From contig JACONQ010000009.1 in NCBI GenBank assembly GCA_014281115.1, forward strand, positions 1,922,001 to 1,986,000: DNA of 64,000 bases. Reading direction: 5' to 3'. The DNA comes from Laburnicola sp. R22_1 (taxonomy: Eukaryota > Ascomycota > Dothideomycetes > Pleosporales > Didymosphaeriaceae). How positions within the stretch are numbered: position 1 is the first letter of the stretch; each line of letters starts with the position of its first letter. Positions 2,718 through 64,000 of this stretch are shown here, one piece after another. Below the pieces are notes generated by a model. It saw only the letters and a program-made list of their open reading frames with translations, searched no databases and had not been told where the DNA came from. The translations under genes and the position numbers were made by a program.

Positions 2718-4554
2718 ATGGCGCCCAAAGCACCCTCCCGCGAGGCCTTGACGCTGCTCAAACACTCCATCCGTCCCTCCAGTGCCCTACGTACGCAATC
2801 GCAGTGTCGTCCTATATACCCAGTCGCCCGCCCTACACCGTGGCTCCAACAACCCCAATTCACAAAGCAAACTTCTCGTGGGATAGCATCGTATACGCAT
2901 GCCCACCATGCCGAAGCCGTCTCCGTCCTCCCGACCGCTGTCGACACGAATTCCGAAGAGTTCAAGGAGAACAAGCGACAGATGGACGAGGCCTTGGATA
3001 GCCTGAACGTGCTTCACACCAAGATCGCGCAGGGCGGGCCGCAGAAAGCCAGGGATAAGCATATGCAGAGAGGCAAGATGTTGGTTAGAGATCGCATCAC
3101 AGCGCTGATAGACCCGGGGACACCGTTTCTCGAGTTCAGTCCAATGGCCGGATATGACATGTATCCTGGCGAAGACGTACCGGCCGGCGGCATTGTTACC
3201 GGCGTCGGAACTGTGAATGGTGTGCAGTGCATGATTGTCGCGAACGACTCTACAGTGAAGGGTGGCACGTACTATCCCATCACAGTCAAGAAGCATCTGC
3301 GGGCGCAAGCCATCGCGCAGGAAAATCGCCTCCCATGCATCTACCTGGTCGACTCTGGCGGTGCTAATCTTCCTCACCAAGCGGATGTGTTCCCTGATAT
3401 AAGCCATTTTGGACGCATCTTCTACAATCAGGCGATCATGTCGGGTATGGGTATTCCTCAGATCAGCGTGGTCATGGGTCCTTGCACCGCAGGTGGCGCC
3501 TACATACCTTCTATGAGCGACGAAAGCATCATTGTGGAAAACCAGGGCCATATCTTCCTTGCGGGTCCTCCGCTTGTGAAAGCTGCAACAGGCGAAATTG
3601 TCTCCGCGGAGGAACTCGGAGGAGGAAAGTTGCATTGTGAGGTCTCCGGTGTAACGGACTCTCTCGCCGTCGATGATGCTCACGCGCTGGTCCTGGCGCG
3701 GAGAAGCGTTGGCAATCTCAACTGGCATCGAAAACAGACCTTTTCGCCCTCCGCGCAACCAGCCTTCAAAGAACCATTGTACGATCCCGCTGAGCTCTCC
3801 GGCATCGCAGGGACCAACCTGCGTCGCCAAATTCCGATTCACGAAGTTATAGCACGCATTGTCGATGGCTCTGTCTTCTCGGAATTCAAGCCGCTTTACG
3901 GACCAACGCTTGTGACTGGGTTTGCATCTATCTACGGTCATCCCGTTGGTATCGTTGCAAACAACGGCATTCTCTTCTCTGAGTGTTCCCTCAAAGGCGC
4001 GCATTTTGTCCAATTATGCGGGAAGCGACAGATTCCACTGATTTACTTGCAGAACATCAGTGGCTTCATGGTCGGAAAAGATGCTGAAATGGGTGGTATT
4101 GCAAAGAACGGTGCTAAATTCGTCACGGCGGTCAGTTGTGTGGATGTGCCCAAGTACACAGTCATTGTTGGAAGTTCAGCGGGTGCTGGTAACTATGGCA
4201 TGTGGTAAGTTTTCCGTCCTCTCCACTTTCGAAAATGAAATCTAACGAGCAATCAGTGGCCGCGCCTTTTCACCTCGTCTACTCTTCACCTGGCCAAACG
4301 CTCGTACCTCGGTAATGGGTGCAGAACAGCTCTCTTCCGTCATGGAGGCCGTTGGAAAGCAAGTAGATCCCAAGCTCAAAGCTCGCATCGAGCACGAGAG
4401 TGAGGCTACGTTCGGTTCCGCGAGATTGTGGGATGACGGTATCATCCCACCAGAGCATACGAGGCGGGTGTTGGGCATGGGACTACAGATGGCGTGGGGT
4501 GGGCAAAATATGGGCGTCGAGAGGGAAACTAAGTGGGGTGTTTTCAGGATGTAA
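2718..4554 (+). CDS. Methylcrotonyl-CoA carboxylase beta subunit, mitochondrial
   Basis: Carboxyltransferase subunit of the biotin enzyme that carboxylates 3-methylcrotonyl-CoA in leucine breakdown; works with the biotinylated alpha subunit in the mitochondrial matrix. Two exons, 2718-4204 and 4257-4554, with a 52-nt intron splitting the Cys codon of GNYGM-CGRAFSP; 594 aa, slightly longer than animal homologues. Residues 1-75 are Arg/Ser-rich with few acidic residues, consistent with a mitochondrial presequence. Family landmarks: [79 protein letters not shown] and a C-terminal [11 protein letters not shown] start at the ATG at 2718 because codons upstream in frame offer only TTG. The alpha subunit gene is not in this window. 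Confidence 0.95.
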
Positions 4555-5911
4555 GATATTGTTGGTGCGAGGAAGTTTAAACAAAGAAATTAGTTTTTAG
4601 CAGGCCAGTTTTTCTTCTTGAATCATCACGAACAGATTTGTAGGAACAATACGCTCGAATAGCAGGTAGATATACGAAAGTTATAAGAATAATGTTCCTG
4701 TGCTCTGTGTGTACGAAGCTCGGATTGTGTTATAATGGTAGAATAGAAGTGAAGCCGGAGATATGCTGTCGTAAGCGATGGATTTGAAATTTAGCTGAGA
4801 AATGATAATAAGGCGAAGAGATGAATTTGCAGATAGATTTGAAGACTGCAGTGTTGTGGTAGACTGAATTTATAGTCGTAGATGAGTGGAAGGTGCATAG
4901 TTGTGCATGAAGTTGAACAATCAGATTGGATTGTTGGGTTGAAATGTTGGGTTGAAATAGAAGATTAGAGTACGAGGCTGAAATTTGAATGATTGGGTTG
5001 AGTGGTTGGGTTGAATGCGCAATTTCAGATAGGTCGGATCGCACCTATTTACGCATCACATTAAACAGTCAATTTGAATTACTAGGTTAAATTGTTAAGA
5101 AAAAATAGTAGGTTGAAGGACAAGGTTGAATTGTGAAGTGTTGTATTGAAATGGTAGGTTGACTTGCCAGGTTGAATCGTGAAGTGATATGGTGAAATGG
5201 TAGGTGGAAATGGTAGGGTTGAGTAGTTACGTTGAATAGTTAAGTCAAAGAAGGATTGAATTGTTAAGTCGTATTATTAAGTTGAATAATGGGTTAAATT
5301 AGTGCGTTTAACTATTAGTTAAGTTAAGTTAGTTAAGTTGGTTGAGTTAAGTTGGTTGAGTTAAGTTGGTTAAGTTGGTTCAGTTAACGTTGAATTAAAG
5401 TTGACTCAAGAAGTTAAAATTAAGAAAGGGGAGAAAGTTGATCAAAATCCAGCTGATTCACACGATTAACAATTCTAATCGAAGCAGCTGATATCATTGT
5501 CCATAGTATCAAAGCGAACCATGTATTTCCCTCATGAACCACCAATCACTGATGCTAGCAGTTGTGTTACTCTCATAGTGACTTATTCGCCTAAATGGCC
5601 AAGGCCATATATGCCGATTGAGTCGTACTCTACTAGCATACGTATCGCAACCGCTGCATGTCCTCACGTCCCATTCACGAGACGTCTTCATCGAAACGTC
5701 ATTTGCTTAGACAGTGGCCCAAATAGGACCAAGCTGACGAGGTTGCTGCAAAACTCATCAACATTATCTTCTGAGATTCAATCGGAAATGCCCAATGTCA
5801 CTCCTGTAAACACATGCATATGTGACCTCCGTCAAGTGGCTGTGAAGCGAAGCCTCGGTCCTATACACCTGCGCCATCATAATTCAGAAAGCTCGTAAGA
5901 AAAACCATTGC
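4555..5911. other. Convergent spacer, AT-rich, no gene
   Basis: Between the convergent MCCB and histidine kinase genes. The central part is a degenerate GGTTGAAT-type repeat (separate entry). 5460-5911 has an open frame on plus but no ATG-supported conserved protein, so I do not call it. Confidence 0.5.
4880..5460. repeat. Degenerate GGTTGAATTGTTAA-type tandem repeat
   Basis: About 580 bp dominated by variants of GGTTGAA(A/T)TGTTA and, at 5313-5395, a tighter array of GTTGAGTTAAGTTG units. Strongly strand-asymmetric (G and T rich on plus). Units are too diverged for a clean period; it looks like an old minisatellite. Confidence 0.7.
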
Positions 5912-8900
5912 TCAGTCGCCAGGCAATGGTAAAAGCATAGGCACAAGATTTTTGAACTTGAGAGGCTTCAGCAAAAACATGTCGAACCCGGAATCTCGCG
6001 CCATGGTACGGGCTTCCTCGCTACCAAGCCCAGTCAGCGCCATGATATGTGCGTGAAGCGCTGGCGATGATGATGCTGTATGGGGTTTTTCATCGACGAC
6101 AGTCTCTTGTTCGTGGAGATCCTGTTTGGGTTGTGGATGCTGCTGTTGCTCTTCAAAGCGACGGATTGCTGCCGCAGCCTGGAAGCCGTCCATGATAGGC
6201 ATACTTATATCTAGGAACACACAGTCGAAGGGTTCCGCTTCTTCTAGGACTGACTTCGTGTACAGACGCACAGCTTCGGCACCATCGGTTGCAGTGGAGA
6301 AAGGACGTCCGGTCCGTTTTACGAATCCGGCTAAGACTTTCAGGTTGATCGGGTTGTCGTCTACGAGGAGGAGACGCTCGAATCGGCAGATTACCGTGGG
6401 TACTGTGACCTTGATCGACGTGTGTGCCTGCTGCGAGGGCGCTATTTGTGGTAATATAGGGTTTTGGGAAGAGTTCTCCTCCGCATTTTGGCTGGGTTGG
6501 CATGACGTGATTCGCAGAGGGAGATTTGTGGTCTCGCTCTGGCTAATGGTGGGTTCATGTTCCACAGCTAGATCTTTCGCCATCGTTGGCTCGGAATACA
6601 CGTCTTGGTTCTCGGCGGTTGGTAATGGATCGAGAGTGTTTGATGTTGTGATGAGGTTTTGGTCCAAAGCCGCGGTGAAAGCAGCCCGAAGCGTTTTCCT
6701 AGTGATAGGTGAGTTTATCGAAATGGCTCCTTTACTGCCGAGAGCATATTCCAATTCCCTAGTGGTAGGTCCCAATATGACGACCGCCCGCGATAGTGCT
6801 GATCGTGCATCTTGAGGAAAGACTTCTGGTAAATGCGGCACATCCTCTGCAGAAAGTGAACGGGTATCGAGCAGAACAATGTCCTGCTGTAGCAACACGT
6901 CGATAATTTGATCATCCACGAGTGTCATCCCGAGATGTTCCTCGCATATATGACGAAGGGATTGCTGAAGCACTCTCGAAGGAGGTACAACAAGTAGGTT
7001 AGACTTGCCGTTGGGTGCGTCATAAGAAGCTATACCGATGACACCAATCGTCAAGCCCTGCATTTTCTCGCAGCGGACAGAGCTATCCACCACTGGCTCG
7101 TCTAACTTTTCTACTTCCTCCTCAAACGGGATGCTGATAGTAACTCGGGTCCCCTCGTATTGGCGACTTTCAACAAGAATGTCGCCGTCGAGTGACTCGA
7201 CAATACTTTTCACTATGGTGAGACCTAGTCCAGTGCCAGACACCAAGCTGCTCTCTTGCATAAAGGGTGTGAAGAGGTGGTATTTGAGGAACTCTTGACT
7301 CATTCCAATACCCGTATCAGTGACACACACGTTGATACATCGAGGAGCATCTTCTGATTGCTTCGACATTCTCAGGGCGACCTCGACATGTCCCGACTCA
7401 GTGTACCGAAGTGCATTGCTGAAGACACCTAACAAGATCCGCTTCCAGGCTCCGATATCCACATGTACGATCCAGCTGTGATTGTGCTCGATGTAGGTTG
7501 TAACCAGGGTTGGCATAGAGGCAGTACCTTGCAATTTGCCGGCAAACGATTCTTGACGTTCTCTTTTCAAGTCTGATGCCATTTGAGAGCCCGAGAAGTA
7601 ACCGAGCGACACTGTTTCTAGGATATCCTCTACGAGAGAGCCAAGGTCGATTGCGATATTCTTTGTAGTCGCACCGCCGGAATATCCGTGTGGCGTATCG
7701 CTTCCCTGACTGTTGATTCCTGAGAACTGTAAAAGATGATCAAAGGTATCCAGCAAAGTATAACTGCACGAATCAATCATTCCAATCATAGAGAGCAACT
7801 GTGGATCATTGATACTTTCTTGCATAAGTTCTGCAGTTGCCAGGATCCCGTGCAAAGGACTCCGTAGCTCGTGGCTAATAGATGAGACGAAGTCGGATTT
7901 CTGTTGCGTGTTCATGGCGGCCTCGAGGCGAAATATTTCGGCCATCAATGAGTTCCCGAATGCTGCCAGAGAATTGATATCGTTCGAATCCAAGGTCTTA
8001 CCCGTATCTGAAACCCAAGCTAGGCACGTGGAAAAGCACGTCTCCCTTTGATAATGCCATTGCGGCAGAAATATTGCATACCGGGCCTTTGGTATACACT
8101 CGAACAAATCCTTCCAACCGTTGTAGATAGCGGACTCGTTACTAGGGTGTTGATCTTCTGCCTCCGGAGCACCCGGCTCAAGGATACCATGTTCATCAAC
8201 AGTAAAGACATGACCGTAGGGATATGTAGCCGTCAGACGTCGTATGAGCGACTGATTGGGCCGGTGAACCATTTGTTGTTTGGCTGTAGTGCCTGCCCGA
8301 TACTCAGACAAAATCTCCGCGGGGAGATAGTCTCTGTGCGTTGTTGGCAACAAGCGCTCATTGTCTGTGGAAAAGGATGACCAAGAATGGCTTTCGTATC
8401 GAGTACCGGTCGCAACTGCATCAAAGAACACCAATCCGTCTAAATCCATGGCATGACCGATCGTATTTGCGGACTTGAAGAAAAGGTTACTAATCCGAGT
8501 GGACGTTTTTGGCATGGATCTTTTCATGTCGTTGTTCTTCTTTCTAGTCATGGTCGTAGCATCAGACAGACTGGGTGTAGGATCTGGGCCGCTCACTGTC
8601 GGAGTTTCCGAATCGATACTGTCATCGATCAGGCCATAAGGATTGTTTTCCATGTTTGAAATCGCGCTCATGTCACCATGGTTTTCAGCCGGGGAACGAC
8701 CATACTCTATCTGCTCGTTTACATGCGAGTTGGAGCTAGTCCACGATGTCTGCTCGAAGGCATCGAGATGAAACGGGGTTGCATTGGACTCTGTAGCGCG
8801 ATTTTCTTCTGAGAGTGTATGTCGAGCGGAACCTATGAACTGGCGGAGCCCATCCATCATCCTTTCCGATCGAATTCGGCCTCTCTCGGTGTGTTTTAGA

Positions 8901-44926: not shown

Positions 44927-46459
44927 TCATAGGTAATCCTGGTGGTCCACATCCACCTCCACCTCCCCCTCCTCGTTCTCCTCGTCCTCCTCTTCCATCT
45001 CTTCCTCGTCCTCCTCCTCCTGCTGCTGCTGCTTCTCCGGATTTTGAACAACATTAAAACCCCCACCCTCAGCATGAATCGCACCAATTTCATTGGATTG
45101 ACCGTATTGTATGATGTCAAGTGTGCCTCCGCGTCCGTGTACATGTACACCGTCGACGGAATTGTTGATTCCGGAAGCCTCGTCGTTGTCGGCGACGGTC
45201 TCGGGGTTTGCGAGCTCGGACTCATGCTGGTCGTTGGACTTTTCGTGGGCGGCGGCAGGGGGGTTTGCGAGCTCGGAACGAGGCACCCTGGGCTCTGCGT
45301 GGCCGGTCTGGGAGTGTAATGGCTCGACTTGTTGTGCTTGGACTGGAGGCTCCTGGACTTGCGGAGGGCCGTACAATGATGGCAAGAGGGAATAATACTC
45401 GACCCATGCCTGGCCTTGATCTTGGACTTGCGGTGCTCGACCTAGCGGTCCTTGAGGTCGCCTTCCTCGGCCTGCTCGGCGTTGCGAACCTGGGTTTCGT
45501 GCTTGGTCCTGCGGCGCCTGGCGTTGTGCCTCCTCTCGCAGTATCTGAGCGTGTGCTTCTCGCATTCTCTGACCTTGGGCATCCTCAAAATCCGGCTGCT
45601 GCACCCATGCCTCGGCATCGTTGCCATGCGAAGCGCCCAGCATCCTCGGATCATGCTGGAACTTCAACCTCAAGTCGTTATGATACGACCAAAAGTCTCT
45701 AATCGCCCGCGTGAGAGGCAAATCGCCCGCCATCACACGGCCCTGTATCATACTTGAGACATAGCACTCGATCCAGTCATCGCCAACGGCTTCGTGGTTC
45801 CTACACGCCCACGTATTCTGTCCCAAGGTAGCATGGAACCCGGTGCCTGTCCCGCGCACGAGGACTTGCACAAGGTTGACATAGCTGCCGTTGTGCTCGG
45901 TGACGTCCTGGAAGCGGAGAATCGTCTCGTCCATCAGCCATCTACCTGCGGGCGTGAAGTCAGCGGGGTAGAGGAACGAATTGTCTATCACGGAGGCATC
46001 GTCTACTTCGGCGGCAAGTTCGGCTGCCTGTTCGTCAGTGAGGGGATGCGGGATGCAGAGAATGCTCCTGCACAGGGGACATGTGTCGCGGTTCCAGGAC
46101 GCAGACCGCAGCAGCTCGAAGATGCAGTCCTCGTGGAAGTGATGGCCGCACTGGGGCATGCGGAAGATGACCTGAGGGCCTGGGACTTCCTCGGGTCCTT
46201 CGCTGCTGTGGATGGTGAAGGTGTTGCCTTCCTGGCAGATGACGCATGTCCAGCCGGGCGGTGGGGTGACTACTGGGAGGTTGTCGTAGAAGACTTCGGC
46301 GGTCTGAAGGTGAGGAGGGGGAGGGTGGTGGGCGGGTGTACTAGAAGGATCACGAGAATCAGCGGATGATAGCAATTGATGTGGATCTCCAACAGCAGCG
46401 TGGAACGGGTCACCGTGGTGGTGCTCGGCATCTTGTGGGGAATTGGCGTCAGCGGACAT
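44927..46459 (-). CDS. RING-H2 finger protein with C-terminal QxGxxN segment
   Basis: Probable E3 ubiquitin ligase. Single exon, 510 aa. The RING-H2 lies at about residues 72-126: CVICQEG, then MPQCGHHFHEDCIFELL and CPLCRS, giving the C-C-C-H-H-C-C-C ligand pattern with an insertion between the first two pairs. A middle region (residues about 150-290) has no recognised fold, then come Gln/Arg/Pro-rich low-complexity segments. Near the C-terminus is NSVDGVHVHGRGG, DIIQYGQSNEIGAIHAEG and FNVVQN, one to two copies of a V-H-x-H-G / Q-x-G-x-x-N repeat related to the interrupted gene at 58939-63463. The tail is polyglutamine then strongly acidic (EEEDEEEMEEEDEE). It flanks the NLR locus on the left. 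Confidence 0.87.
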   Translation of the reverse strand: MSADANSPQDAEHHHGDPFHAAVGDPHQLLSSADSRDPSSTPAHHPPPPHLQTAEVFYDNLPVVTPPPGWTCVICQEGNTFTIHSSEGPEEVPGPQVIFRMPQCGHHFHEDCIFELLRSASWNRDTCPLCRSILCIPHPLTDEQAAELAAEVDDASVIDNSFLYPADFTPAGRWLMDETILRFQDVTEHNGSYVNLVQVLVRGTGTGFHATLGQNTWACRNHEAVGDDWIECYVSSMIQGRVMAGDLPLTRAIRDFWSYHNDLRLKFQHDPRMLGASHGNDAEAWVQQPDFEDAQGQRMREAHAQILREEAQRQAPQDQARNPGSQRRAGRGRRPQGPLGRAPQVQDQGQAWVEYYSLLPSLYGPPQVQEPPVQAQQVEPLHSQTGHAEPRVPRSELANPPAAAHEKSNDQHESELANPETVADNDEASGINNSVDGVHVHGRGGTLDIIQYGQSNEIGAIHAEGGGFNVVQNPEKQQQQEEEDEEEMEEEDEENEEGEVEVDVDHQDYL

Positions 46460-47565
46460 CGTTGGGTTCGACGGTTCCTGTCAGGTGAAGTCGATTGTTG
46501 TTGAGAGGTTGAGTTTTCCGCTGTTGTGTAGCGGGAAGAATATCGTCCGGATTTATATATGGGCCGGCGTGACTTGCACTCTGCTCGGACGGACCTAGCT
46601 CAGGTTGGTGGTCTCGGTAAAACCAACTCTTTCCATGCAAATTGTGCCATTCACCAAATCTCGAGCACCCAGTAATCTTGAATCATATGACTTCGCGCAC
46701 CTTTAGTACGGCTCATTGTACAAGAAGGTAACACTGTGCCAACGCCATTAATACATTATCAACGGACATCAATCATCTCGCTCCAGCGGGCTTAACTTAG
46801 CCACACTTCTTCTAGTCATCTATAAACTTATCATAGTACCAAACAGGCTCTAGCTTCGCGGGAAAAGTCGTATCTAAGGACCTCTGCTAAGCAACCTAAC
46901 AACGCTAGAACTACAATATATACTTATAATTTATATAAATAAGCCCCTATAAAATTCTATAAACTTAGGAAATAATAATAAGCTTAAAATTAAGTACTAG
47001 AAAGAAAATCTTCGCAAACCTTTCGGTACACGGTAAAACGCTGCGATGCAAAGCTGTTAAAAGTAAGTATATTTATTAAGAACTGCGAGTTCTATAAGCA
47101 ATACAATAGCTGTCCTTAGGTATGACGTTTTCTGCGACGCGAGCGACAGGATATATATATCAATCTCACAAAACAATCTTCTCATTTTCTACTCTCATAA
47201 TCGCACCATAATGCGTACGATCGAGGCATTCCATTTCACAATCATCAAGCCTGCCTAGGTACCTACTGCTGATTCAGGTTGCCTTCTTCATCAGCGAGAA
47301 AATGCTGCGGTAGGTGCCCGCGGCATTGTCGGGATTGAGGTCCTCGGTATCGGTGAAGATGATGTTGTCGCTACCGCCGTGAGTGGTGTCCTCGGCATCG
47401 TTGGGAGCGGTGTCCTCGTCATCGTTGGGATTGATGTCCTCGCCATCTTCATAGTTGAGCTCCTCATCATCTTCGTAGTTCTGCTCCTCGCCACCGCCAT
47501 GATCAACTCCCTCGCCATCATCGCCATTCCAGCCCTCCCCACCGCGGGTCTCTTGCCGACCACCC
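46460..47565. other. Spacer left of the NLR locus
   Basis: 1.1 kb. AT-rich at 46900-47010, with dispersed repeat copy 3 at 47019-47057. At 47330-47520 an imperfect 30-bp repeat could encode an Asp/Glu-rich peptide on minus, but that frame has no usable ATG. No gene called. Confidence 0.5.
47019..47057 (+). repeat. Dispersed short repeat, copy 3
   Basis: CCTTTCGGTACACGGTAA followed by AACGCTGCGATGC. Very close to the copy at 39035. Confidence 0.5.
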
Positions 47566-49185: not shown

Positions 49186-51201
49186 CTATTGGTTATACTC
49201 TTTCACATAGATCTCAGCACTAGAAAGAGATTCTAAAGATGGACCCTCGCCGTGGCCTGGCCTGCTTTGCTCAACCTCTTGTTGCATAGCTACGAAATGC
49301 TCGCGACATGCGATAGTTATTGGATGCTCGGGATTAAGCTGTTGGGCGTACCCGTCGCATGCTCGTTGGTACAGCTCTGCTGCTTCTGTGTAGCGACGCA
49401 GCGCGTGCAAGAGATGAGCGAGGCAGTAGACGGAAGTCAGCGTATCTGGGTGCTGCACCCCAAGCTCCTTCTCCTTCCCTTCCAGCGCTCGCCGGTTGAG
49501 CTTCTCTGCTTCCTCGTACTTCCCCTGGGCCTGCAGCACCAACGCCAACACCTCCACGCTGACCAATGTCTGTTGGTCGTCTAGCCCTACTGCTTTCTCC
49601 CTAGCGGCAAGCGCCTTTGCTGCTATCTCTTGTGCGATGCTGTAGCTCCCTCGCATCAACAGATACCACGCTGCATTTGTGAGCACCTGCGCCCATGCCT
49701 TGAGCGCCTCCTTAGCAGCTGGCTCGCTGTTGAAGAGCGGTTCAACGTGGGGAAGCAGCTGCTGGCATGTTCCCCAGTTCTCATACCCTCCGCTAGGCAA
49801 CTCTTGCGCCATCAGCGCCACGAATCTCTGCTCCCACTGCTCTGCGTCGCTGAACGAAGATAGCCAGACTTGCGTGCAGAACTGCACAAGAGCGTGCATC
49901 TCACATGCATCGTTGTCTGCCGTCATCGATACCATAGAGTACGCCTGCAGAGTGTCTAGGTCTTCGTCGAACGCGCCGTCCGCCTCTTCATCATCATCAA
50001 GCTCTGCCGCTCCTGCCTTCTCTCTGCTGTGTCTTCGCAGTGTCGACTCTGGTATGCCCTGCGGGTTGAAGAAGCTCATCAGCGACAGCAGCTCTGCCGC
50101 CGACCGCCGCTCCCGCCGGATCTGCTCGAACGACATCTGCCACGTCGTCACCACCGAGTTCGACGCGCTCCCGTCGCGACGCAGCTTGCCCGCGTCCCAG
50201 TTGAGCAGGCTCTCTCGCTTCTTGCTGTTTCTTCGAAACTCATCTAGATAGCGTGCGATCGTCATGCGCGCGCGCCGGCTGATGTACGCAGCCGCTTGGG
50301 TGATCGCAAGAGGTATGCCGTCGAGCGCGCACAATAGCTCTATAGCGCTCTCTTCGTTCGGCGGGTCGCGCAGCTTGTTGCGAAGCAGCTGCAGGCCTTC
50401 GCTCTCGTCCATCGCGAGCACCTCCTTGATCTTGTTGTCGCCTCCCGCTAGTCTGGCTGCTGCGTCTTTGCTGCGAGACGTGACTAGTATCGCTCCGTTG
50501 CGGCTTTGTGGCAGGTATGTGGCAAGCGGTACCTGCGCGCTCGTGTCTGCCTCGCTTCGCCGGCGCTTCCGCGACAGGAAGGTCTCCACGTCGTCAACGT
50601 TGTCTACGACCATCACCCACCGTCCGTTCGTCTCATCCCGCAGCCAGTCGCTGACCAGCCGCAGCACGTTCGCCTTCGCGTCGCTCCTCCCCGGCAGCTC
50701 CAGCCGGTCTGCGATGTCTCTGTAGGCTTCCTCGAACCGAGCGCGGGTGTTGGCGTGCACCCAGAAGACGAACGTCTGCGGGCTCGCATCGCGGATGCTG
50801 TGGGCGTACTGTATGGCGAGCTGCGACTTGCTGTTGTCTATTAGTATTGCAGTGCGCATGGAGATGATATGGCGACGTCGACATACCCTACCCCGCCAAG
50901 ACCCACCAGCGCTGCCCGCGCGCCTGGTCCCGCGCACTTGTCGCGCACCCACGCGACGATCTCAGGCCGGTCGACAAAGTCCGGGTCCGGCGCAAACGGC
51001 ACCGTCGAGAAGGGCTCGCGCGGTCGGGCGGGTTGATCTACTTGCTGGTGTTAGTGGAGAGACCCTAGTGACGATAGCGCACCTACGCTGTGTCGGCGGG
51101 CAGCCGAAGTTGAAGTTGGTCGTCCCGCCGGCCGCGGTATGGGTCCCTGGTATCACATATTGACCACTGGTCGGCCCGTGAAACTCGCTCATGTGCTGCA
51201 T
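49186..51201 (-). CDS. NLR 1: NB-ARC/TPR STAND protein with N-terminal Gly/Asn motif
   Basis: Fungal NOD-like receptor. Exons 51201-51087, 51040-50887 and 50830-49186 give 638 codons (637 aa). Residues about 13-35 form the short motif GQYVIPGTHTAAGG-TTNFNFG, coded by exon 1. Then VPFAPDPDFVDRPE, the P-loop VGLGGVGKSQLAIQYAHSIR (split by the second intron), Walker B-like WVMVVDNVDD, sensor ILVTSRSKD, and GIPLAITQAAAYIS (the GxP motif). The C-terminus has just two 42-residue TPR units (49548-49297), against nine in its paralogue. All three exons are intact. The second intron (56 nt) starts inside the P-loop Gly codon. Divergent from the transposase-type gene 206 bp away; NLR 2 is its inverted copy. 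Predicted to sense a ligand through TPRs and template a motif-bearing effector (inference from the family). Confidence 0.88.
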
Positions 51202-51407
51202 TTCATATCAGAGTAGGGGAGAAGCAGGAGTTTTTGTCAACCTGAAGCGGCTGAAGGGAAGCGAGCGCTTGCAACGACGTGCTGCCGCGTGATCCCCGTG
51301 GCAAGGCTGAGCTACTCGATCGGCCACGGCGCTGACAGGGTCGCTTCTGCCAGCTGTCCTGAGCGACGCTTTCTCCATGATACCCTACTCCGTGAGACAC
51401 CCTGAAG

Positions 51408-52373
51408 ATGGCGCCCAATCTTGCAATATCGCAACATGATTTGATACGCGACATGCTCCTCGATGGGTCTTTGTCACAGGTTGATATGGCCAAGGTTGCT
51501 GGTTGCAGTGATCGCACAATTCGCAACATAGCCGCTAACCTTCGACTGTTTGGCAGGACGAAAGCGCCAGCGAACGGTGCTGGACGGCGACGACGTATCA
51601 CTCCACCTATGCTCGCCGCGCTCTGTGACCGACTGATCGAGAAGCCGGGTCTGTATCGCGACGAGATGGCCGTATTCTTATATGACGAGTTCCAGGTCCT
51701 TGTCTCCCTCTCCAGCATCAGCAGGGCTTTGGCGTCCATCAAGTGGACCAAAAAAGTCGTGCAACGCATCGCCAGCGAACGGAACGCCGACCTCCGTGAC
51801 TTCTACCTCCACAAGCTCTCTGCTTTTCGCTCGCAACAGCTGGTTTATGTAGATGAGTCTGGATGTGACAAGCGCATCGGCTTCAGGCGCACAGGTTGGT
51901 CTCCGCTTGGGGTAGCACCTGTAGAGGTCACTCGTTTCCATCGAGATCGTAGATATCAGATTCTGCCCGCGTACACTCAGGACGGGGTGCTGTTTTCGAA
52001 AGTCTTCCAAGGCTCGACTGATGGTGAGGTGTTCGAGGACTTTGTAGAGCAGCTGCTCCACCACTGCAGCCCCGATGCCGTCCTAGTCATGGACAACGCG
52101 TCGTTCCACCACAGCGAGCGTATTAAAGAAATGTGCCTCAAAGCAGGCGTCGAGCTTCTGTATCTGCCGCCCTATTCGCCAGACCTCAACCCGATCGAGG
52201 AGTTCTTCGCAGAGCTGAAAGCGTTCATTAAGAAGCAGTGGCATGAGTACGAGAGCTGCCCGCACCAAGAGTTTGGGGCCTATCTCGAGTGGTGCATCGA
52301 GGTGGTGGGAGGTAGCCAAGATAGTGCGAGGGGTCACTTTCGGCATGCAGGCGTGACAGTTGAAGCATATTGA
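51408..52373 (+). CDS. Intact IS630/Tc1-mariner-type DDE transposase
   Basis: Single-exon 321-aa transposase with no internal stop. N-terminal helix-turn-helix of homeodomain-like type (HDLIRDMLLDGSLSQVDMAK, GCSDRTIRNIAANLR), a second HTH-like part (RRRRITPPMLAALCDRL), then the DDE core: LVYVDESGCDKR (first Asp), VLVMDNASFHHSERI (second Asp) and YLPPYSPDLNPIEEFFAELK (Glu, DD34E-like spacing). No convincing terminal inverted repeats or TA pair were found around it. It is not RIP-mutated although RIP has clearly acted nearby. It may be a recent single-copy arrival, or a host-captured gene now paired head-to-head with NLR 1. Confidence 0.88.
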   Translation: MAPNLAISQHDLIRDMLLDGSLSQVDMAKVAGCSDRTIRNIAANLRLFGRTKAPANGAGRRRRITPPMLAALCDRLIEKPGLYRDEMAVFLYDEFQVLVSLSSISRALASIKWTKKVVQRIASERNADLRDFYLHKLSAFRSQQLVYVDESGCDKRIGFRRTGWSPLGVAPVEVTRFHRDRRYQILPAYTQDGVLFSKVFQGSTDGEVFEDFVEQLLHHCSPDAVLVMDNASFHHSERIKEMCLKAGVELLYLPPYSPDLNPIEEFFAELKAFIKKQWHEYESCPHQEFGAYLEWCIEVVGGSQDSARGHFRHAGVTVEAY

Positions 52374-54455: not shown

Positions 54456-55352
54456 CTATCCGAAGTTAAAGTTATTTGTACCCCCGGTAACGTGAGTCCC
54501 TGATACCACATAACGACCTGATATAGGCCCATTAAATACAGCTCCATTATACGATTGGGCAGCCTGGCTTTGATTTCGTGACGTCACGTTCTGAGGCAGA
54601 GACGGCTCTTCTCTAGAACGTGCGTTAATCTCCTTCTGCAACCGAGCTGATGCGTTTCCCCGGCCTTCCCCATATATAAGTGGCATGTATACTTTGAAGA
54701 TACCTAGCAGCGAGTACACCATGTCTTCCTCGCGCTTTGTCTGGCGTCTCCCCACCCACGACATGCGCTCATCAACGCTGAACTGGTCTAGGGGGATTCC
54801 TCGGAGAGCTTCCACGCTGATCCCAGTAATGCCATGGAGCTCTTGCACCAACTTGTATTTGTTCCCAAGTCGCTCGCCTTCGACCGAAAAGAACTCGACC
54901 GATGTCGGTGCCAACAACTCTTGGAGTGTCCAGCCTCGCGTGAACCACCTGCTTTGCTGAAACGCAGGGTACCAGTCTTGTCGGACAGGCTTCCTGCTGC
55001 TGAGATCGCCGGTCGAAACGTCGGACAGATACGCGTAGCATTGAGTAGCCTTGCGGTACCATTTAAACATAGAATTGATCGCCTCGGTGAGCTCTACACT
55101 GCTCGTCTTGTCGATGCAGCAAGTGTCTACCCAGAAGTAGCGGAGATCGTCCTTGGCAGCCTGGTCTGCGCAGAATTGTGGTTTCTTGTAGCCTGCCTTG
55201 GTCATGTCTGTATCTTTCTCCAGGTCTCCAAGGGTGACTTTGTCGCGATCCGCACCCCAAGTATGAGACAAGATAGCGTAATAGGGAATGGCATCGCCTG
55301 TGAACTCTGTCAGAGTGTACCTGCCATCGTTGTTGCGTTGCAGAAGGCGCAT
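54456..55352 (-). CDS. HET-domain effector ending in the NLR motif
   Basis: HET domain proteins trigger heterokaryon-incompatibility cell death. Single exon from ATG 55352, 298 aa: MRLLQRNNDGRYTLTEF, then the HET signature AILSHTWGADRDKVTL, FWVDTCCIDKTSSVELTEAI, SMFKWYRKATQCYAYLSDV and WFTRGWTLQELLAPTSVEFF, with REEDMVYSLLGIF. After residue about 240 comes a Gln/Ser/Asn-rich linker, and the protein ends at NGPISGRYVVSGTHVTGG-TNNFNFG. This last segment matches the N-terminal motif of both NLRs position by position, which is the expected layout of an effector activated by amyloid-type templating from an NLR. Start codon: MRLL is the normal HET opening; the longer upstream frame has no similarity. 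Divergent from NLR 2, starts 265 bp apart. Confidence 0.9.
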   Translation of the reverse strand: MRLLQRNNDGRYTLTEFTGDAIPYYAILSHTWGADRDKVTLGDLEKDTDMTKAGYKKPQFCADQAAKDDLRYFWVDTCCIDKTSSVELTEAINSMFKWYRKATQCYAYLSDVSTGDLSSRKPVRQDWYPAFQQSRWFTRGWTLQELLAPTSVEFFSVEGERLGNKYKLVQELHGITGISVEALRGIPLDQFSVDERMSWVGRRQTKREEDMVYSLLGIFKVYMPLIYGEGRGNASARLQKEINARSREEPSLPQNVTSRNQSQAAQSYNGAVFNGPISGRYVVSGTHVTGGTNNFNFG

Positions 55353-55617
55353 AGTGGGTGGGACGAATCGGAGGGCCAGCTCTAGGTGAGATGTCTTTGA
55401 AAGAGAAGGCAGAATGAGGACATGAGATGACGGAAAGCATGAAGATCCACATAGACGGCCGAACATGTTCTGTAAGCGCCCAAGGCTGAGGCTGAAGCCT
55501 GCTTGGCATCCATCTAGCAGGCGCAGCTGCAGAACGTCTCCGCCATTCATCTACCCTCTCCTCTAACCTCCGCACGACCTCGGGGTTTCTCAAGACACAC
55601 ACCATCTCACTTCATCG
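55353..55617. promoter_or_regulatory. Shared divergent promoter, HET effector / NLR 2
   Basis: 265 bp between the divergent start codons of the motif-matched HET and NLR genes, a head-to-head arrangement typical of fungal effector/NLR pairs. No specific element recognised. Confidence 0.4.
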
Positions 55618-58204
55618 ATGGGAAGCACGTTCCAGGCGCAGATCGATGGTCAGTATGTGATACCAGGGACCCATACCGCGGCCGGCGGGACGACCAACTT
55701 CAACTTCGGCTGCCCGCCGACACTGCGTAGGTGCGCTATCGTCACTAGGGTCTCTCCACTAACACCAGCAAGTAGATCCACCCGCCCGACCGCGCGAGCC
55801 CTTCTCGACGGTGCCGTTTGCGCCGGACCCCGACTTCGTCGACCGGCCTAAGATTGTCGCGTGGGTGCGCGACAAGTGCGCGGGACCAGGCGCGCGGGCA
55901 GCGCTGGTGGGGCTTGGCGGCGTAGGGTATGTCGACGTCGCCATCTCCGTGCACCCTATAATACTAACAGACTACAGCAAGTCGCAGCTCGCCATACAGT
56001 ACGCCCACAGCATCCGCCATGCGAGCCCGCAGACGTTCGTCTTCTGGGTGCACGCCAGCACCCGCGCTCGGTTCGAGGAAGCGTACAGAGACATCGCAGA
56101 CCGGCTGGAGCTGCCGGGGAGGAGCGACGCGAAGGCGAACGTGCTGCGGCTGGTTAGCAACTGGCTGCGAAATGAGACAAACGGACAGTGGGTGATGGTC
56201 ATCGACAATGTAGACAATGTAGAAACCTTCTTCCCATCGCGGAAGCGCCAGCGAGGCGAGGCAGACGCTAGCGCGCAGATACCGCTGGCCACCTACCTCC
56301 CCCAGAGCCGCAACGGAGCGATACTGGTCACGTCGCGCAGCAAAGACGCAGCAGCCAGACTGGCGGGAGGCTATAATAAGATTAAGGAGGTACTGGTGAT
56401 GAACGAGAGCGAAGGCCTGCAGCTGCTTCGCAATAAGCTGCGCGACGAGCCAAGTGAAGAGAGCGCTGTGGAGCTGCTCCGCGCCCTCGACCGCATACCG
56501 CTTGCGATCACCCAAGCGGCTGCGTACATAAACCGGCGTGCGCGCATGACGGTCGCATGCTATCTAGACGAGTTTCGAAGAAACAGCAAGAAGCGAGAGA
56601 GCCTGCTGAACTGGGACGCAGATGAGCTGCGGCGCGACGAGAGCGCGTCCAACTCGGTGGTGACAACGTGGCAGATGTCGTTCGAGCAGATCCGGCAGGA
56701 GCGGCCGTCGGCGGCAGAGCTGCTGTCGCTGATGAGCTTCTTCAACCCGCAGGGCATACCAGAGTCGACGTTGCGGAGATACAGCAGAGAGGCTACAGGA
56801 GGAGCAGAGCTAGACAATAACGAGGAGGCTGAGAGCGCGTTTGAGGAGGATCTGGACATCCTGCAGATGTACTCTCTGGTGTCGACAACAGTAGATGACG
56901 ATACGTGTGAGATGCACGCTCTAGTGCAGTTCTGCACACGAGTTTGGCTCTCGGCGTACAGCGATGCAGAGCAGTGGGAGCAGAGGTTCGTGACGCTAAT
57001 GGCGCAAGAGCTGCCTAGCGGGGAGTTTGAGAGCTGGGCAAAGTGCCAGCAGCTGCTCCCGCACGTCGAACCGCTTTTTGTCGCAAAGCCAGCTGCCGAA
57101 GAAGCGCTTAAGGCATGGGCACAGGTGCTTACAAACGTAGCGCGTTATCTGTGGTTGCGAGGGAGCTACAGCATCGCACAAGAGATAGCAGCAAAGGCGC
57201 TTACCGTCAGGGAGAAAGCACTAGGGCTAGACGACCAACAGACACTAGTCAGCCTGGAGGTCCTGGCGTCGGTGCTGCAGGACCAGGGGAAGTACGACGA
57301 AGCAGAGAAGCTCAACCGAAGAGCGCTGGAAGGGAGGGAGAAGGAGCTTGGGGTGCAGCACCCAGATACGCTGACGAGTGTGAACAACCTGGCGTTGGTG
57401 CTGCGTTATCAGGGGAAGTACGACGAAGCCGAGAAGCTCAGCCGGCGAGCGGTGGAAGGGTACGAGAAGGAGCTTGGGGTGCAGCACCCAAATACGCTGA
57501 TAGCTGCAGGTAACCTTTCGACGCTATTGCGGATAGTGGGCAAGTACAGAGAGGCGGAAGCGATAATCTTGCGAGTGCTGCAAGAACATGAGAAGGAGCT
57601 TGGGCTGCAGCACCCTTCTACGCTGACGAGCGTAAGCAACCTAGCGGGAGTGCTGCGTTATCAGGGGAAGTACGACGAAGCAGAGAAGCTCAACCGAAGA
57701 GCGCTGGAAGGGAGGGAGAAGGAGCTTGGGGTGCAGCACCCAGATACGCTGACGAGTGTGAGCAACCTGGCGTCGGTGCTGCAGGACCAGGGGAAGTACG
57801 ACGAAGCAGAGAAGCTCAGCCGGCGAGCGGTGGAAGGGAGGGAGAAGGAGCTTGGGGTGCAGCACCCAGATACGCTGACGAGTGTGAACAACCTGGCGTT
57901 GGTGCTGCAGGACCAGGGGAAGTATGACGAAGCAGAGAAGCTCAACCGAAGAGCGCTGGAAGGGAGCGAGAAGGAGCTTGGGGTGCAGCACCCACATACG
58001 CTGACGAGTGTGAACAACCTGGCGTTGGTGCTGCAGGACCAGGGGAAGTATGACGAAGCAGAGAAGCTCTACCGAAGAGCGCTGGAAGGGAGCGAGAAGG
58101 AGCTTGGGGTGCAGCACCCACATACGCTGACGAGTGTGAGCAACCTGGCGTCGGTGCTGCGTGACCAGGGGAAGTACGACGAAGCAGAGAAGCTCAACCG
58201 GTGA
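55618..58204 (+). CDS. NLR 2: NB-ARC/TPR STAND protein, prematurely stopped in the TPR array
   Basis: Inverted paralogue of NLR 1. Exons 55618-55726, 55773-55926 and 55978-58204 give 829 aa. N-terminal motif GQYVIPGTHTAAGG-TTNFNFG after MGSTFQAQID; then VPFAPDPDFVDRPK, P-loop GLGGVGKSQLAIQYAH across the second intron, WVMVIDNVDNVET, ILVTSRSKD and RIPLAITQAAAYIN. The TPR array begins at 57263. At 58202-58204 a TGA replaces the CGA (Arg) found at this place in other units. The same frame then continues for 102 codons to a stop at 58510, through a ninth TPR unit and a tail (RLAQGEGLSLGSL) matching the end of NLR 1. So the ancestral protein was about 931 aa. Whether the truncated form still works is unknown; the nucleotide-binding part is intact. 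The second intron is 51 nt, so retention keeps the frame open. Confidence 0.88.
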
Positions 58205-58396
58205 GCGCTGGAAGGGTACGAGAAGGAGCTGGGAGAGGACCACCCCAACACGCTGACATCTGGCTACTGCCTCGCTCATCTCTTGCACACGCTGCGCCAG
58301 TATACAGAAGCGGCAGAGCTTTACCAACGAGCGTGCGACAGCTACACCCAGCAGCTTGGCTCTCAGCATCCAACGAGTGTGGCGTGCCACAATTCC
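57263..58396 (+). repeat. Nine 126-bp TPR-coding repeats
   Basis: Exact 126-bp period: unit starts at 57263, 57389 and so on to 58271. Units 1 and 4-8 are near-identical at DNA level (GKYDEAEKLNRRALEG, KELGVQHPDTLTSV). Unit 2 is slightly and unit 3 and the last unit more diverged. Unit 8 carries the TGA. High internal identity points to concerted evolution or recent unit gain. NLR 1 has two units. Confidence 0.93.
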
Positions 58397-58510
58397 TTCG
58401 CAGCTATGCAGCAAGAGGCAACACAAGCTAGGTTAGCGCAAGGCGAGGGTCTATCTCTAGGTAGCCTTAAACGTGTTTCTGATACGGAGACTTGTAAGAA
58501 AGATGTGTAG

Positions 58511-58938: not shown

Positions 58939-59080
58939 CTACGGTACGTTGTCAACGCTGCGACCACCCCCATCCCCATCCCCATGTATATGCACATCAA
59001 AAACCCTATTCCACTCTCCCCGCTGAACAACAGTAACCATCCCCCAGACATGCATATCGCGGATACAATTCCTCTCTCCA

Positions 59081-59088
59081 CGCTGCAC
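59081..59088. repeat. hAT target-site duplication, left copy
   Basis: CGCTGCAC immediately before the element; identical to 63144-63151. Confidence 0.93.
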
Positions 59089-59399
59089 CAGTGTGTCCAA
59101 CAGTCAGTTACTGAACGTTTTTTGGCCTTTTTCTAGTGAACACTGCCGTCACGTGCCTACTAACTGTACTGTTAACTAGGGGTGTTACACTAGTTACTGT
59201 CGCCTAATAGTAACTGCTTTAACGTTGTTAGTTACTGTACTATTAGGGGTAGTTACTGCAGTAACCTAAGCGTTAGAAGGCTCCTAGAGCACCTTAAGTT
59301 AGCTTATAAGGTTCTAGAGTTCGCTAAGTTTACTATAAATTACTTTATTTTATACTTAATTTTGCTATAATTGCAAGGCTTTAATTATTAAAAGAGAGA

Positions 59400-61840
59400 A
59401 ATAGTTTCTTAGGGTAGTAATTATTTGTTTAGTAAGGCTAAAACACCTCTTACACTTACAGAAGATGGCTAGTATTATAAGAAAGTTAATAGTAACTTTA
59501 TATAGTATAAGGTAATATATACACCTAATATTAAGCCACTAATTAAGCAGCTGCTTTTTAATTGCGTTACCCTTTTTAGCAACCTATAAATTATTCTTAA
59601 TATTATTAATATAAGTCTTAACTTTAGTAAGGCCTTTAAAGCGCTTATAGGAGCGTTTATTAGTAAATAGGTTAAGGTTAATAGCTATTAGATCTTTATT
59701 AGAGTTCTTATACTTAATATTACTACTAGAGATCTTATATTTACTAGGGGACTCTAGAACCTCTTTCTCCTCTACTACCTCCTTATTATTAATATACTGT
59801 TAGTATACAGTCTTAAGCGATTTTTCTACCTACTTATACTAAGATTGCTAGGCTAACTAGTAGTTCTTAAAGAATAATATGTGGAGGATAGAGTGTAAAG
59901 TAGTAGTAATATAGGCCTATAAGATAGTGGGCATTATTACTAACTTTTTAAAATATATTATTGACTTTTATATAGCGAATTTAATAGCGTTTTTAATATA
60001 GAAGTTTCTTAGTATAGTATATAGGTTATGCTACTAGGTATAGAGCTTCTACTATATTCTTTATAAGTAAGGCAGCGTCTACTAAAGACTGCTATACCTA
60101 GACTTACTAGTCTTATCCTCTAACTTAATTATTATATTGCTAAAGACTTTAAGGTACTTAATAAGCTACGCAACCTTATCCTAATTATTCTTACTTAGCG
60201 CGTTAGTAAGAGAATTATAATTATTATAGGCGTTAGTAGTATTATTAAAGTCTCTAAGGCAACGCATAAAGTAATATATTACGTTCTTTAACTTATAGTA
60301 GCGCTTAAGTATAGCGTACATAGAGTTCTACCTAATACCGCTATTCTAGATTAGATAGGCGCTACTATATTACTAAAGTGAGTTCTTATTAGTAAGCTCT
60401 CTTTATATGCCCTTAAAAAGCTTATAGTGTTTATAAGATACTAAAATTATATTTATAAAGTTGTAGCACTTGCTAATAACTCTATACTTTCTATATAGTT
60501 AGAATTACTCCTATAAAGCTGCGCGCGCAATCTTCGCCTTAAAGCTACTAGCTTTTCTATATAGAAAGGCTTTAATAATAAGGTTAATTATATAGCTAGC
60601 GTAGTAAAGGCAGTTATCTATTATAAGGTTAATATTAGGGTCTTCGCATAAACTAGTAATAAGCTCCCTATTATTACTAGTAGTATTATTAGCTATAAGA
60701 TAGTAGATTTTTAACGCATAGTTATAGTTAGTAATAGTAGCGCGAGTTTTCTAAGTAATTACAGCCCTAGAGTAGTCTTCTAGAAGATTTTTAATGGCAA
60801 TAAGAATATTAGTAGGCTTGTTATTATAATTTAAAATCTTATAAGTTAAAATTACTATAATTTATAGTAATTTACGCTAAGTACGCGCTAGTGACTTAGC
60901 TATATCTAAAAAGTACACAATAACTCCTAAAAAGAAGTAATAGTTAAAAGAAGTCTACACGTCTAGGCTTAGCGCAATTTTACTATATAATATTTTAGTA
61001 CTATTTAAATCTCTTCTTTCTGTCGCACTATACCCTATATAATATAAGTAGAGAGTATTATAAGGAAGGATAGCAATGCAGCTAAAAGATCCTATTATTG
61101 CTATAAGATAAGGTCCTAAAAATCTACTAATAATACTAGCTAAAAGCTAATATTATTAATAACTATAAAGTTAACTAACGCCTTTAATAACTCTAGCGCT
61201 CTTTATAAGGCATACAATGCGCTTAGTGCCTTTATAGTAATCTTTTATAAATTACTACTCTTTAAGCTACCTATTAGTATTAACTAGCTACTATTAGGGT
61301 GTATCTAGTAGACAGATACTAAGTAGCTAAGTATATAGGTAGTTATTAAGATTCTTTTTAGTACTAACTTATCTCTAAATAAATAGCAAAGTTTGCATAA
61401 GTATAGCTTTATACACTAATTACTAACTATATAGATAAGATCTACGCTATATTTCTATATAGGCGATATTTTTGTCTTTAATAATAAGCTTCTTAATAAG
61501 AAGACGTAATAACCTATAGAGTTAGGATCTAGACGCCTCTTATTTAACTATAGCTTATTTTATTATATAGGAAACTTTAGGCCACTATTAGAATTACCTA
61601 TAAAGGGATATATATGCAAGCTTATATTAGGGAGCTCTTGCGTAGATAATAGTAGTAATAACGCCCTAGATAATAGGATAGAGAAGGGGTCTAGCAACGT
61701 CCTTTCTTTGCCTTTATTAGTCTACTAAAGAGAGGACTATAGCTAAGTGCTAGGATCTGCGTAGGCAGTAGGCGGGCGTTAAGTACCCTAAACAATACTA
61801 AGTTGGCTTTAGCTAGGTATAATAATAGGTAGATAAATAA
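59400..61840 (-). pseudogene. hAT transposase relic with RIP-type stops
   Basis: Read on minus with TAG/TAA taken as former Gln, one long frame appears. It opens with a BED-finger-like stretch (YSVDLIYIVSN, LYLCKLCYLF, around 61385-61460). Later come NNRELI, a block like the hAT RNase-H middle (TSKSRYSSL) and Lys/Asn-rich sequence. Nearly every GC-rich codon has drifted to A/T. Boundaries are approximate. Element class is decided mainly by ends and duplication; protein similarity is supportive only. Confidence 0.65.
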
Positions 61841-61981
61841 ATATTATAATAGAAATAAATAAAGGCTACTAAATAAGTTATAAAGGCTGCTATATATATA
61901 GTGTAAGAGTACTAAAAATTTAGTGTAGGTAAGGACCTTTCTAGCTACATTAGGAAAGTTTTTTCCAGAGAGGCTACTTAA

Positions 61982-62092
61982 CCGTGCGCAGATGTGCGCA
62001 TCTGTGCGCATTTTTGCATAGGCAATTTGCTAGCACAAAAATGCTTAGAGATGCGCAGACATGCGCAGACTTGCGCAAATGTGCACAAATAG
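61982..62092. repeat. TGCGCA-rich island inside the hAT element, copy 1
   Basis: About eight TGCGCA or close variants in 110 bp (CCGTGCGCAGATGTGCGCA, GATGCGCAGACATGCGCAG) in an otherwise A/T-rich element. Could be transposase-binding subterminal-type repeats. Confidence 0.7.
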
Positions 62093-62886: not shown

Positions 62887-63143
62887 TCAAAATTTTTCCT
62901 GATGTAGCGTTGTTATACGTTGTTATACAGCATTTTACTTTACTAAATTAGGCGTGAACTTAGGCGCTAACACTAAAAACTATCTCTAATTACCTAATTA
63001 GGTAAGTTTAATAGTCTTACTACGGTTACTAGCATATTACTGTACAGTTAGTTACTGCCCTAACATGCCTAACTACTGTACTGTCCACCAACAGTCGATG
63101 AACAGTCAGTGACCGGCAGTAAGACTGACTATTGGACACACTG

Positions 63144-63151
63144 CGCTGCAC
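63144..63151. repeat. hAT target-site duplication, right copy
   Basis: CGCTGCAC immediately after the element; its reverse complement is the GTG CAG CG of the VQR codons of the host gene. Confidence 0.93.
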
Positions 63152-63463
63152 CATGACCCTCCCCAAGACAGGCCGGCCGCGGACAGCGTTCCAGTCTCCA
63201 CGCTGAACAATGGTCAGACTACCATGGACACGCAGGCCGCGGATGGTGTTGTGGTGTCCACGCTGGACGATGGTGAGATTGCCGTGGATAGTCTGGTTGT
63301 GGATGGTGCTGTCTACTCCATGCACGTTGCGCGTCGAGGACTGGGGGTTTGGTCCACGACCTGGGCGGCGGTAGGGGTGCTGGCGCGCGGGAGTGGCGCG
63401 TGTGCGACTGTTCCCGCTGTGCGAGGCATCTGGGATGGGGTGGTCCGGGGGTTCGTCAGACAT

Positions 63464-64000
63464 ATTTGATGTTTTTGAAGGTGCTGGTGTTTGAGGTACA
63501 AGAGTTGTGTTGTGAGTACTGTGATTCTACCTAGTCGGGTATCAAGTGAAGTTGGCCGGTGTGTTGTGGTCGAGGGGTGAAAATCTTTCTGTTCGGGAAA
63601 ATATTAACCTGTATACTTTCGAGTCATCAAAATGCACTTTCACAGGAAATACCGAAATCTTGGCAAGAGGCCACTGTGAATGCGTGCTATCAACCAAGGC
63701 GTGAGCGGTGGGGTGTAGTTGAACAAGGCAAGTGAAAGATCGGATGAGATGGTATTTTGTGTACAAGGTGAAATGGAATGCCTTCCTGGTATACGCGATA
63801 GGTTTGATAGAAATATAAGGATAGACGGCAGTCTGATTGTCCATGGAATGGAAACTCGTGCAAATTAATTAGGATGGTGCCCGCTGCGGTACTTTCACCG
63901 CGTGTCATTTTTAGCAGTGGTAATGAGCAAATACGATGCCACTCACACACCTCCTCACGTTGGGTCGTATGTGGTGTTGTGTAGGCATAGCGCGTATGAT
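63464..64000. other. Upstream flank of the QRGxxN gene, right edge
   Basis: 537 bp; promoter of the interrupted gene by position. Open frames here show no family similarity. Confidence 0.5.

Follow-up and report, generated by a model that had tools for sequence, protein, structure and literature searches.

A candidate three-gene amyloid-signalling locus with a HET-domain effector and two NB-ARC-TPR receptors in Laburnicola sp. R22_1

We describe a locus of three genes in the filamentous fungus Laburnicola sp. R22_1, in which a gene for a HET-domain protein is placed between two genes for NB-ARC-TPR receptors of the NOD-like receptor (NLR) type, here called NLR1 and NLR2, and one short motif of about 26 residues is found at the C-terminus of the HET protein as well as at the N-terminus of both receptors. 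The locus lies in a stretch of 64,000 nucleotides (C26:1922001-1986000, called the window below), the gene content of which is evidently that of a filamentous fungus, and the genome searched comprises 63.9 Mb in 26 contigs. Judged from sequence features, the locus probably encodes an NLR-effector system with a new family of amyloid signalling motif, working like NWD2/HET-S and having a HET protein as effector. An earlier note on this DNA had pointed out the motif at the end of the HET protein and at the beginning of one divergent NLR, and had proposed the two as a candidate amyloid-signalling pair. Both motifs are where it saw them, and the pairing with NLR1 holds, while the second receptor, NLR2, had been overlooked. 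The candidate pair itself is supported by the recurrence of the motif in other fungi, by its placement at receptor N-termini and effector C-termini, by its sharing across effector domains and by a PP system with the same layout elsewhere in this genome.

The locus and its shared motif

The features of the locus, in positions of the window, are the following.

54456..55352 (-): HET-domain effector gene, likely coding sequence, 298 aa, single exon, Pfam HET E 5.2e-13
54459..54536 (-): effector-side terminal motif FNGPISGRYVVSGTHVTGGTNNFNFG, the last 26 residues of the HET protein, directly before the stop
55353..55617 (no strand): head-to-head interval between HET and NLR1, 265 bp; in translation, the ~150 bp closest to NLR1 can be aligned to the beginning of the Bimuria NLR model P0006
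55618..58204 (+): NLR1, motif-NB-ARC-DUF7779-TPR receptor, modelled introns 55727-55772 and 55927-55977, stop 58202-58204
55630..55710 (+): receptor-side motif of NLR1, FQAQIDGQYVIPGTHTAAGGTTNFNFG, residues 5-31, exon 1
58205..58510 (+): TPR-coding frame beyond the in-frame stop of NLR1, by sequence reading
49186..51201 (-): NLR2, motif-NB-ARC-DUF7779-TPR receptor, 637 aa, modelled introns 51086-51041 and 50886-50831
51103..51183 (-): receptor-side motif of NLR2, FHGPTSGQYVIPGTHTAAGGTTNFNFG
51396..52373 (+): transposase-like open frame between NLR2 and HET, Tc1/mariner-like by eye, no family search run

The two receptor genes are divergently transcribed and point away from each other with the HET gene in the middle; the start of the HET gene lies 265 bp from that of NLR1, an interval which is possibly a shared promoter, and its stop lies 3.3 kb from the start of NLR2. 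The HET open frame, closed by the stop codon at 54456-54458 (-), extends upstream to 55550, where translation had formerly been placed. We replaced this start by 55352 (MRLLQ), which is probably the true one because the corresponding Met is the first residue in 13 of the 16 HET homologues; the other three are one N-terminally partial sequence and two longer models. The HET domain (PF06985) reaches 50 bits against a gathering cut-off of 22.5. The HET protein is an effector of the cell-death type, encoded next to the receptors, that ends in the same motif as they begin with.

Both receptors combine NB-ARC (E 4e-8 and 1e-7) with TPR repeats, which places them among STAND/NLR proteins; both have the Walker A sequence GLGGVGKSQ, and in 2/2 the motif is carried by a short N-terminus. 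The NLR2 protein begins with MQHMSEFHGPTSGQYVIPGTHTAAGGTTNFNFG and is read from exons 51201-51087, 51040-50887 and 50830-49186 (-), the introns of both receptors being splice models made from sequence without transcripts. For NLR1, the receptor and its motif as seen in the earlier note are real, and two introns as well as an in-frame TGA at 58202-58204 have to be added. This TGA falls inside a TPR array of 126-bp units (7.7 copies), and the GTGAG at the stop can alternatively be read as a splice donor.

By Smith-Waterman alignment the HET tail scores 91 with NLR1 (z 17.4) and 98 with NLR2 (z 17.7), none of 2000 shuffles being as high in either case, and among the 1289 open reading frames of at least 30 aa in the window the first-exon frames of NLR1 and NLR2 are its two best non-self matches, with the third scoring 38. 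The motif of NLR2 resembles the HET tail more than that of NLR1 does (FHGPTSG.. / FNGPISG..). When the genome was searched with the HET tail (E<=10, four candidates scored, so that counts are lower bounds), the non-self matches listed were NLR2 (E 7.7e-6), NLR1 (8.2e-5) and a broken receptor copy on contig C24 (0.029). The motif hence occurs in at least four places, three at the locus and one in this NLR fragment (C24:1215720), on both sides of which there are transposase-like frames. Since the genome holds at least 55 HET-like and at least 43 NB-ARC-like places at E<=1e-10, some of them pieces or broken, the one motif-bearing HET gene found adjoins, out of many, the only two non-fragment motif receptors found.

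Recurrence of the motif and its relation to known families

The protein databases were searched with a method that requires shared words of 5 residues and thus misses distant relatives. Residues 1-45 of NLR2 retrieved nine proteins (from 10 candidates), all with DUF7779 and all with the motif on a short N-terminus, with precomputed NB-ARC in eight and TPR in seven of them, and the motif core starts at residue 16-19 in 8/9. They come from Phaeosphaeria, Curvularia (two species), Plenodomus, Alternaria, Bimuria, Melanomma, Byssothecium and Ophiobolus, genera which we take to be Pleosporales. Ahead of its start, the Bimuria NLR gene has about 150 bp which in translated form can be aligned with the HET/NLR1 interval. 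The HET tail (residues 322-364) retrieved 16 proteins (from 20 candidates), namely 15 HET proteins and a hydrolase; 14 proteins have a precomputed HET domain, and a partial HET protein of Bimuria is 92% identical to that of the window over 204 residues. In 14 of the 15 HET proteins the motif lies 14 residues or fewer from the C-terminus, and P0025 has 93 residues beyond it. The hydrolase is the alpha/beta hydrolase P0024 of Lindgomyces, the tail of which found, besides P0024 itself, 12 sequences in a search that is biased to hydrolases by its seed: ten further sequences of hydrolase type (a hydrolase domain is precomputed for six, and the four others, which are shorter, were assigned by reading), the HET protein P0036 and the PNP_UDP_1 protein P0037, named Fusarium solani. 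A scan of viral contigs for linked HET and NLR loci was unproductive.

Together these searches brought 9 NLRs, 16 HET proteins, 11 hydrolases of SesB-like type and a single PNP_UDP protein, and with the window included there are 40 instances of the motif (17 HET, 11 NLR, 11 SesB-like, 1 PNP_UDP). Their consensus is SYxGPVFNGPISGRYVIPGTHTTGGTxNFNFG, and in the HET piece F7, G13, T26 and F29 are invariant. The motif is modular, being common to HET proteins, SesB-like hydrolases and, in one protein, PNP_UDP, and the nearest motif neighbours of the HET proteins P0036 and P0022 are hydrolase motifs, across domain lines. That receptors share a short motif with effectors of three unrelated domain types is characteristic of fungal amyloid signalling motifs.

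The earlier note had also called the motif reminiscent of sigma yet perhaps a distinct family, and the comparison agrees with both parts of this description. In a Pfam scan of the 40 pieces at E<=10, where the HMMER filters drop most matches above E 0.1, none matched the models of HET-s, PP (Ses_B) or sigma (NACHT_sigma), while the positive controls were recognised, with E 1.7e-11 for the published sigma peptide (PMC8086366) and 7.4e-9 and 5.2e-7 for two PP pieces from contig C5 of the same genome. The sole match, of one piece in 40 to Myco_haema at E 0.19, was taken as noise. The median z against the sigma peptide is 1.0, with 0/40 above 3, and GGTQNIN aligned with GGTTNFN is the best fit; the sigma submotifs A (GxGxQFN) and B (GGTQNIN) fit 0/40 with 0 or 1 mismatch, and 31/40 and 24/40 with 2. 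The genome has 0 places for NACHT_sigma (PF17106). On these comparisons we place the motif outside the sigma model, sigma-like in flavour as it is. Membership of PP is not supported either: Ses_B (PF17046) and the core NxGxQxGxN are found in 0/40 while the PP controls of the genome match. Nor is that of HRAM, with 0/40 Pfam matches at E<=10, no positive control having been run for the HET-S model, and with no genome match of PF17108 over its cut-off and none at the motif. The PUASM pattern FxGxGxQxxGxGxF, used as a pattern and not as the published HMM, is in 0/40 even with 2 mismatches. Against the bacterial BASS3 peptide 2/40 reach z>3, and against a BASS3-like peptide 0/40.

In its layout the system can be compared with several known ones. 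Like NWD2/HET-S of Podospora (HRAM), it has an effector C-terminal motif matching the NLR N-terminal motif, adjacent genes and an effector tail apparently unfolded before templating; unlike it, the effector is of HET (TIR-related) and not of HeLo type, with one motif copy and not two, the receptors are NB-ARC-TPR and not NACHT-WD40, and the HET-S model has no match. The sigma motif of het-eN/sesA/sesB in Nectria is likewise used by several effector classes, among them SesB and UDP-phosphorylase, and the weak GGTxNxN likeness is shared, but a HET effector goes unmentioned for sigma in the accessible part of PMC3321046, and NACHT_sigma is absent from all 40 instances. PUASM also involves PNP_UDP, which is among the effectors here (P0037), but it is reported uniquely with PNP_UDP in the available text of PMC9815663. 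Bacterial BASS motifs sometimes stand on TIR domains, so that an amyloid motif is coupled to a TIR-type domain there as well (PMC7889193, in its accessible part), whereas the present system is fungal and HET is only remotely TIR-like.

The PP motif (PNT1/HELLP/SBP) offers a parallel in the same genome, though the 40 instances lack its core and its Pfam match. At C5 (1356500-1366400) the effector is a HeLo protein (Pfam HeLo E 1.4e-54) that bears a PP motif (Ses_B E 4.5e-8), and on either side of it stands an NB-ARC-TPR receptor which carries a PP motif too, the layout of the present locus. At C20 (3159000-3168900; stretch L036), at about 3437-6153, a hydrolase that reads as SesB-like lies between two divergent NB-ARC-TPR NLRs, and its tail NNDGTITNLAQGDMRI shares a weaker motif with the NLR starts NNAHIGNLAQRDINI and NNYGNIGNMAERINI (z 4.4 and 3.6); the two pieces scanned from this locus gave no Pfam match. 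When the three effector tails were compared with the six receptor N-termini, all 6 pairs within a locus stood out (z 17.4, 17.7, 12.5, 10.6, 4.4 and 3.6) and all 12 across loci stayed at z 2.0 or less, in an illustration rather than an unbiased sample, since the loci were picked after reading ten stretches and the window. The receptors of the three loci form one family, with 45-52% identity to NLR2 in the NB-ARC region, and given these z values they carry different N-terminal codes, each matching its own neighbour. On this view, related receptors of a single genome would use different tail codes to reach their effectors, of HeLo, HET and perhaps SesB-like type.

Other arrangements occur beside these. 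In stretches L037, L038 and L041 a SesA-type protein with a G/N-rich tail, assigned by Pfam SesA (E 1.3e-25) in L038 and by likeness in the other two, has as neighbours an NLR of NB-ARC type and an open frame of HET type; when the six-frame translations between the two genes were read in L038 and L041, no matching NLR start was seen. An all-against-all comparison of open reading frames in eight stretches was dominated by TPR repeats, and no count was drawn from it. At least four frames in the genome (C7, C20, C1 and C24) appear to be HET-NB-ARC fusions, as judged from equal open-frame lengths on one strand, and a fused all-in-one alternative is described for other effectors in the accessible part of PMC3321046.

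Proposed mechanism and alternative explanations

In the resting state the HET tail would be unfolded behind a variable linker. A ligand sensed by the TPR domain would lead NB-ARC to oligomerise the receptor, the crowded N-terminal motifs might then fold into a beta-arch or amyloid seed, and this seed would template the HET tails, whereupon the clustered HET (TIR-related) domains would become active and trigger regulated cell death. Because NLR1 is cut short by the in-frame TGA, NLR2 may be the working receptor. Residues 248-298 of the HET protein, at predicted local distance difference test values (pLDDT) below 50, form a tail without structure in the monomer model. The AlphaFold model of HET is modest, and the VIA alignment list is weak and insufficient to prove a TIR fold. 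A sequence search of the PDB gave 0 matches at E<=1 for the HET profile and two weak ones (E 0.53 and 0.87) for the motif profile. The fuller proposal, which we favour by a small margin over its negation, is that of an undescribed amyloid motif family that lets NB-ARC-TPR receptors activate in trans a HET effector (TIR-related, possibly NAD-consuming) and, in other fungi, also SesB-like hydrolases and PNP_UDP proteins; the HET proteins would be the first fungal HET executors templated by amyloid, and the motif possibly propagates as a prion.

Several points limit the case for an amyloid-signalling locus. NLR1 ends at 58202-58204 while its TPR frame continues to 58510, and the transposase-like frame separates NLR2 from the HET gene. 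Bimuria and Ophiobolus have both HET and NLR proteins, on contigs of unequal length, so that the pair is seen side by side in the present genome. Mean column conservation in the HET alignment, at 0.84 for the motif, 0.82 for the HET core and 0.59 for the linker between, favours a conserved motif behind a variable linker, but the value for the motif is partly built in because the set was collected by motif. To these are to be added the illustrative nature of the cross-locus comparison and the lack of a matching NLR start in the two SesA loci. The computed results, moreover, do not separate ordered binding from amyloid, so that the shared motif might be an ordinary receptor-effector contact that involves no templating and is made either by homotypic beta-augmentation or through a third-party adaptor. 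The composition speaks on both sides of this: with little Q (1.9%) and abundant T, H and P the motif reads less prion-like than sigma or PP, while its low charge (4% charged residues) and high Gly (19%) are in line with traits listed for such motifs in the accessible part of PMC3321046. As placement, sharing across three effector domains and a layout like that of the PP system all match amyloid signalling, we hold a non-amyloid contact to be unlikely.

Nearly as unlikely, if a little less so, is that the motif is a divergent branch of sigma. The GGTxNxN likeness to submotif B (GGTQNINT in the consensus of PMC3321046) and the fits with 2 mismatches favour it, and the same source, in its available part, also ties sigma to SesB, to UDP-phosphorylase and to proteins with NB-ARC or TPR; the failure of all 40 instances against NACHT_sigma, against the sigma peptide at z>3 and against either submotif with up to 1 mismatch tells the other way, and the published peptide is readily recognised by NACHT_sigma. 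A third possibility, decay of the locus to a remnant in this strain, appears slightly less probable than either. The in-frame TGA in NLR1, the transposase-like frame, the GC of 0.43 at 58-60 kb and 0.30 at 60-62 kb and the broken receptor copy on C24 would fit decay, but the HET and NLR2 frames are open, both NLRs keep Walker A and the motifs are kept, and in Podospora NLRs, too, TPR number varies among strains (PMC4986451, as far as its text was available). A chance or compositional match, conceivable for a short and Gly-rich motif, is rejected on the shuffles, the ranking among 1289 frames and the recurrence in other genomes. Recent gene conversion between neighbours, which together with chance we regard as very improbable and which the earlier note had named as a possible refutation if recurrence were lacking, is contradicted as well. 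In every instance aligned (29/29 effector, 11/11 receptor, the letters varying slightly) the effector form, GTHVTGGT, has one residue less than the receptor form, GTHTAAGGT. The HET and NLR2 motifs are 69% identical in DNA, and of the 18 residues identical between them 9 are encoded by different codons. The motifs of NLR1 and NLR2, at 90% DNA identity, are recent relatives of each other.

Relation to the literature and further observations in the window

Our comparison with the literature draws on the accessible parts of PMC9815663, PMC5485727, PMC8086366, PMC12261475, PMC3321046, PMC12881547, PMC7889193, PMC10197012 and PMC4986451. The amyloid-coupled effectors named there are HeLo, HeLo-like/Goodbye, SesA, SesB, NAD and PNP_UDP; a HET-domain effector with an amyloid motif is not named in this open-licence literature on fungal amyloid signalling, supplements and subscription reviews aside, nor did we see experimental work on this motif in it. 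The pair survey of PMC9815663 includes HET (as seed domain) and DUF676 effectors and, its supplementary motif profiles and logos aside, names no HET-linked motif in the available text; the present motif might in principle be among the unassigned ones of that survey, for example NLR34, which has 29 sequences and lacks an effector partner. HET-domain loci number 125 in P. anserina and 69 in the N. crassa reference genome according to PMC10197012, which in its accessible part calls open both the killing mechanism of HET domains and the role of most HET genes. If the amyloid reading is true, the link that the motif makes between NLRs and HET proteins standing alone would offer a way of HET activation that can be tested, amyloid signalling, as known from necroptosis, would be joined to a TIR-related effector as used in plant and animal immunity, and one family would be added to the four or five fungal amyloid motif families listed in the available part of PMC12261475.

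Elsewhere in the window, a 165-aa open frame at 63029-63526 (-) contains the repeats HGNLTIVQRGHHNTIRGL / HGSLTIVQRGDWNAVRG, which by eye are like beta-solenoid or curli-type repeats, and a weaker copy of them lies at 59002-59094 (-). The C-terminus GTLDIIQYGQSNEIGAI of a RING-finger protein at 44927-46480 (-), which among the genome matches listed found its own place only, resembles these repeats by eye. The stretch at 60001-62000 is AT-rich (GC 0.302) and possibly holds mutated repeat remnants.

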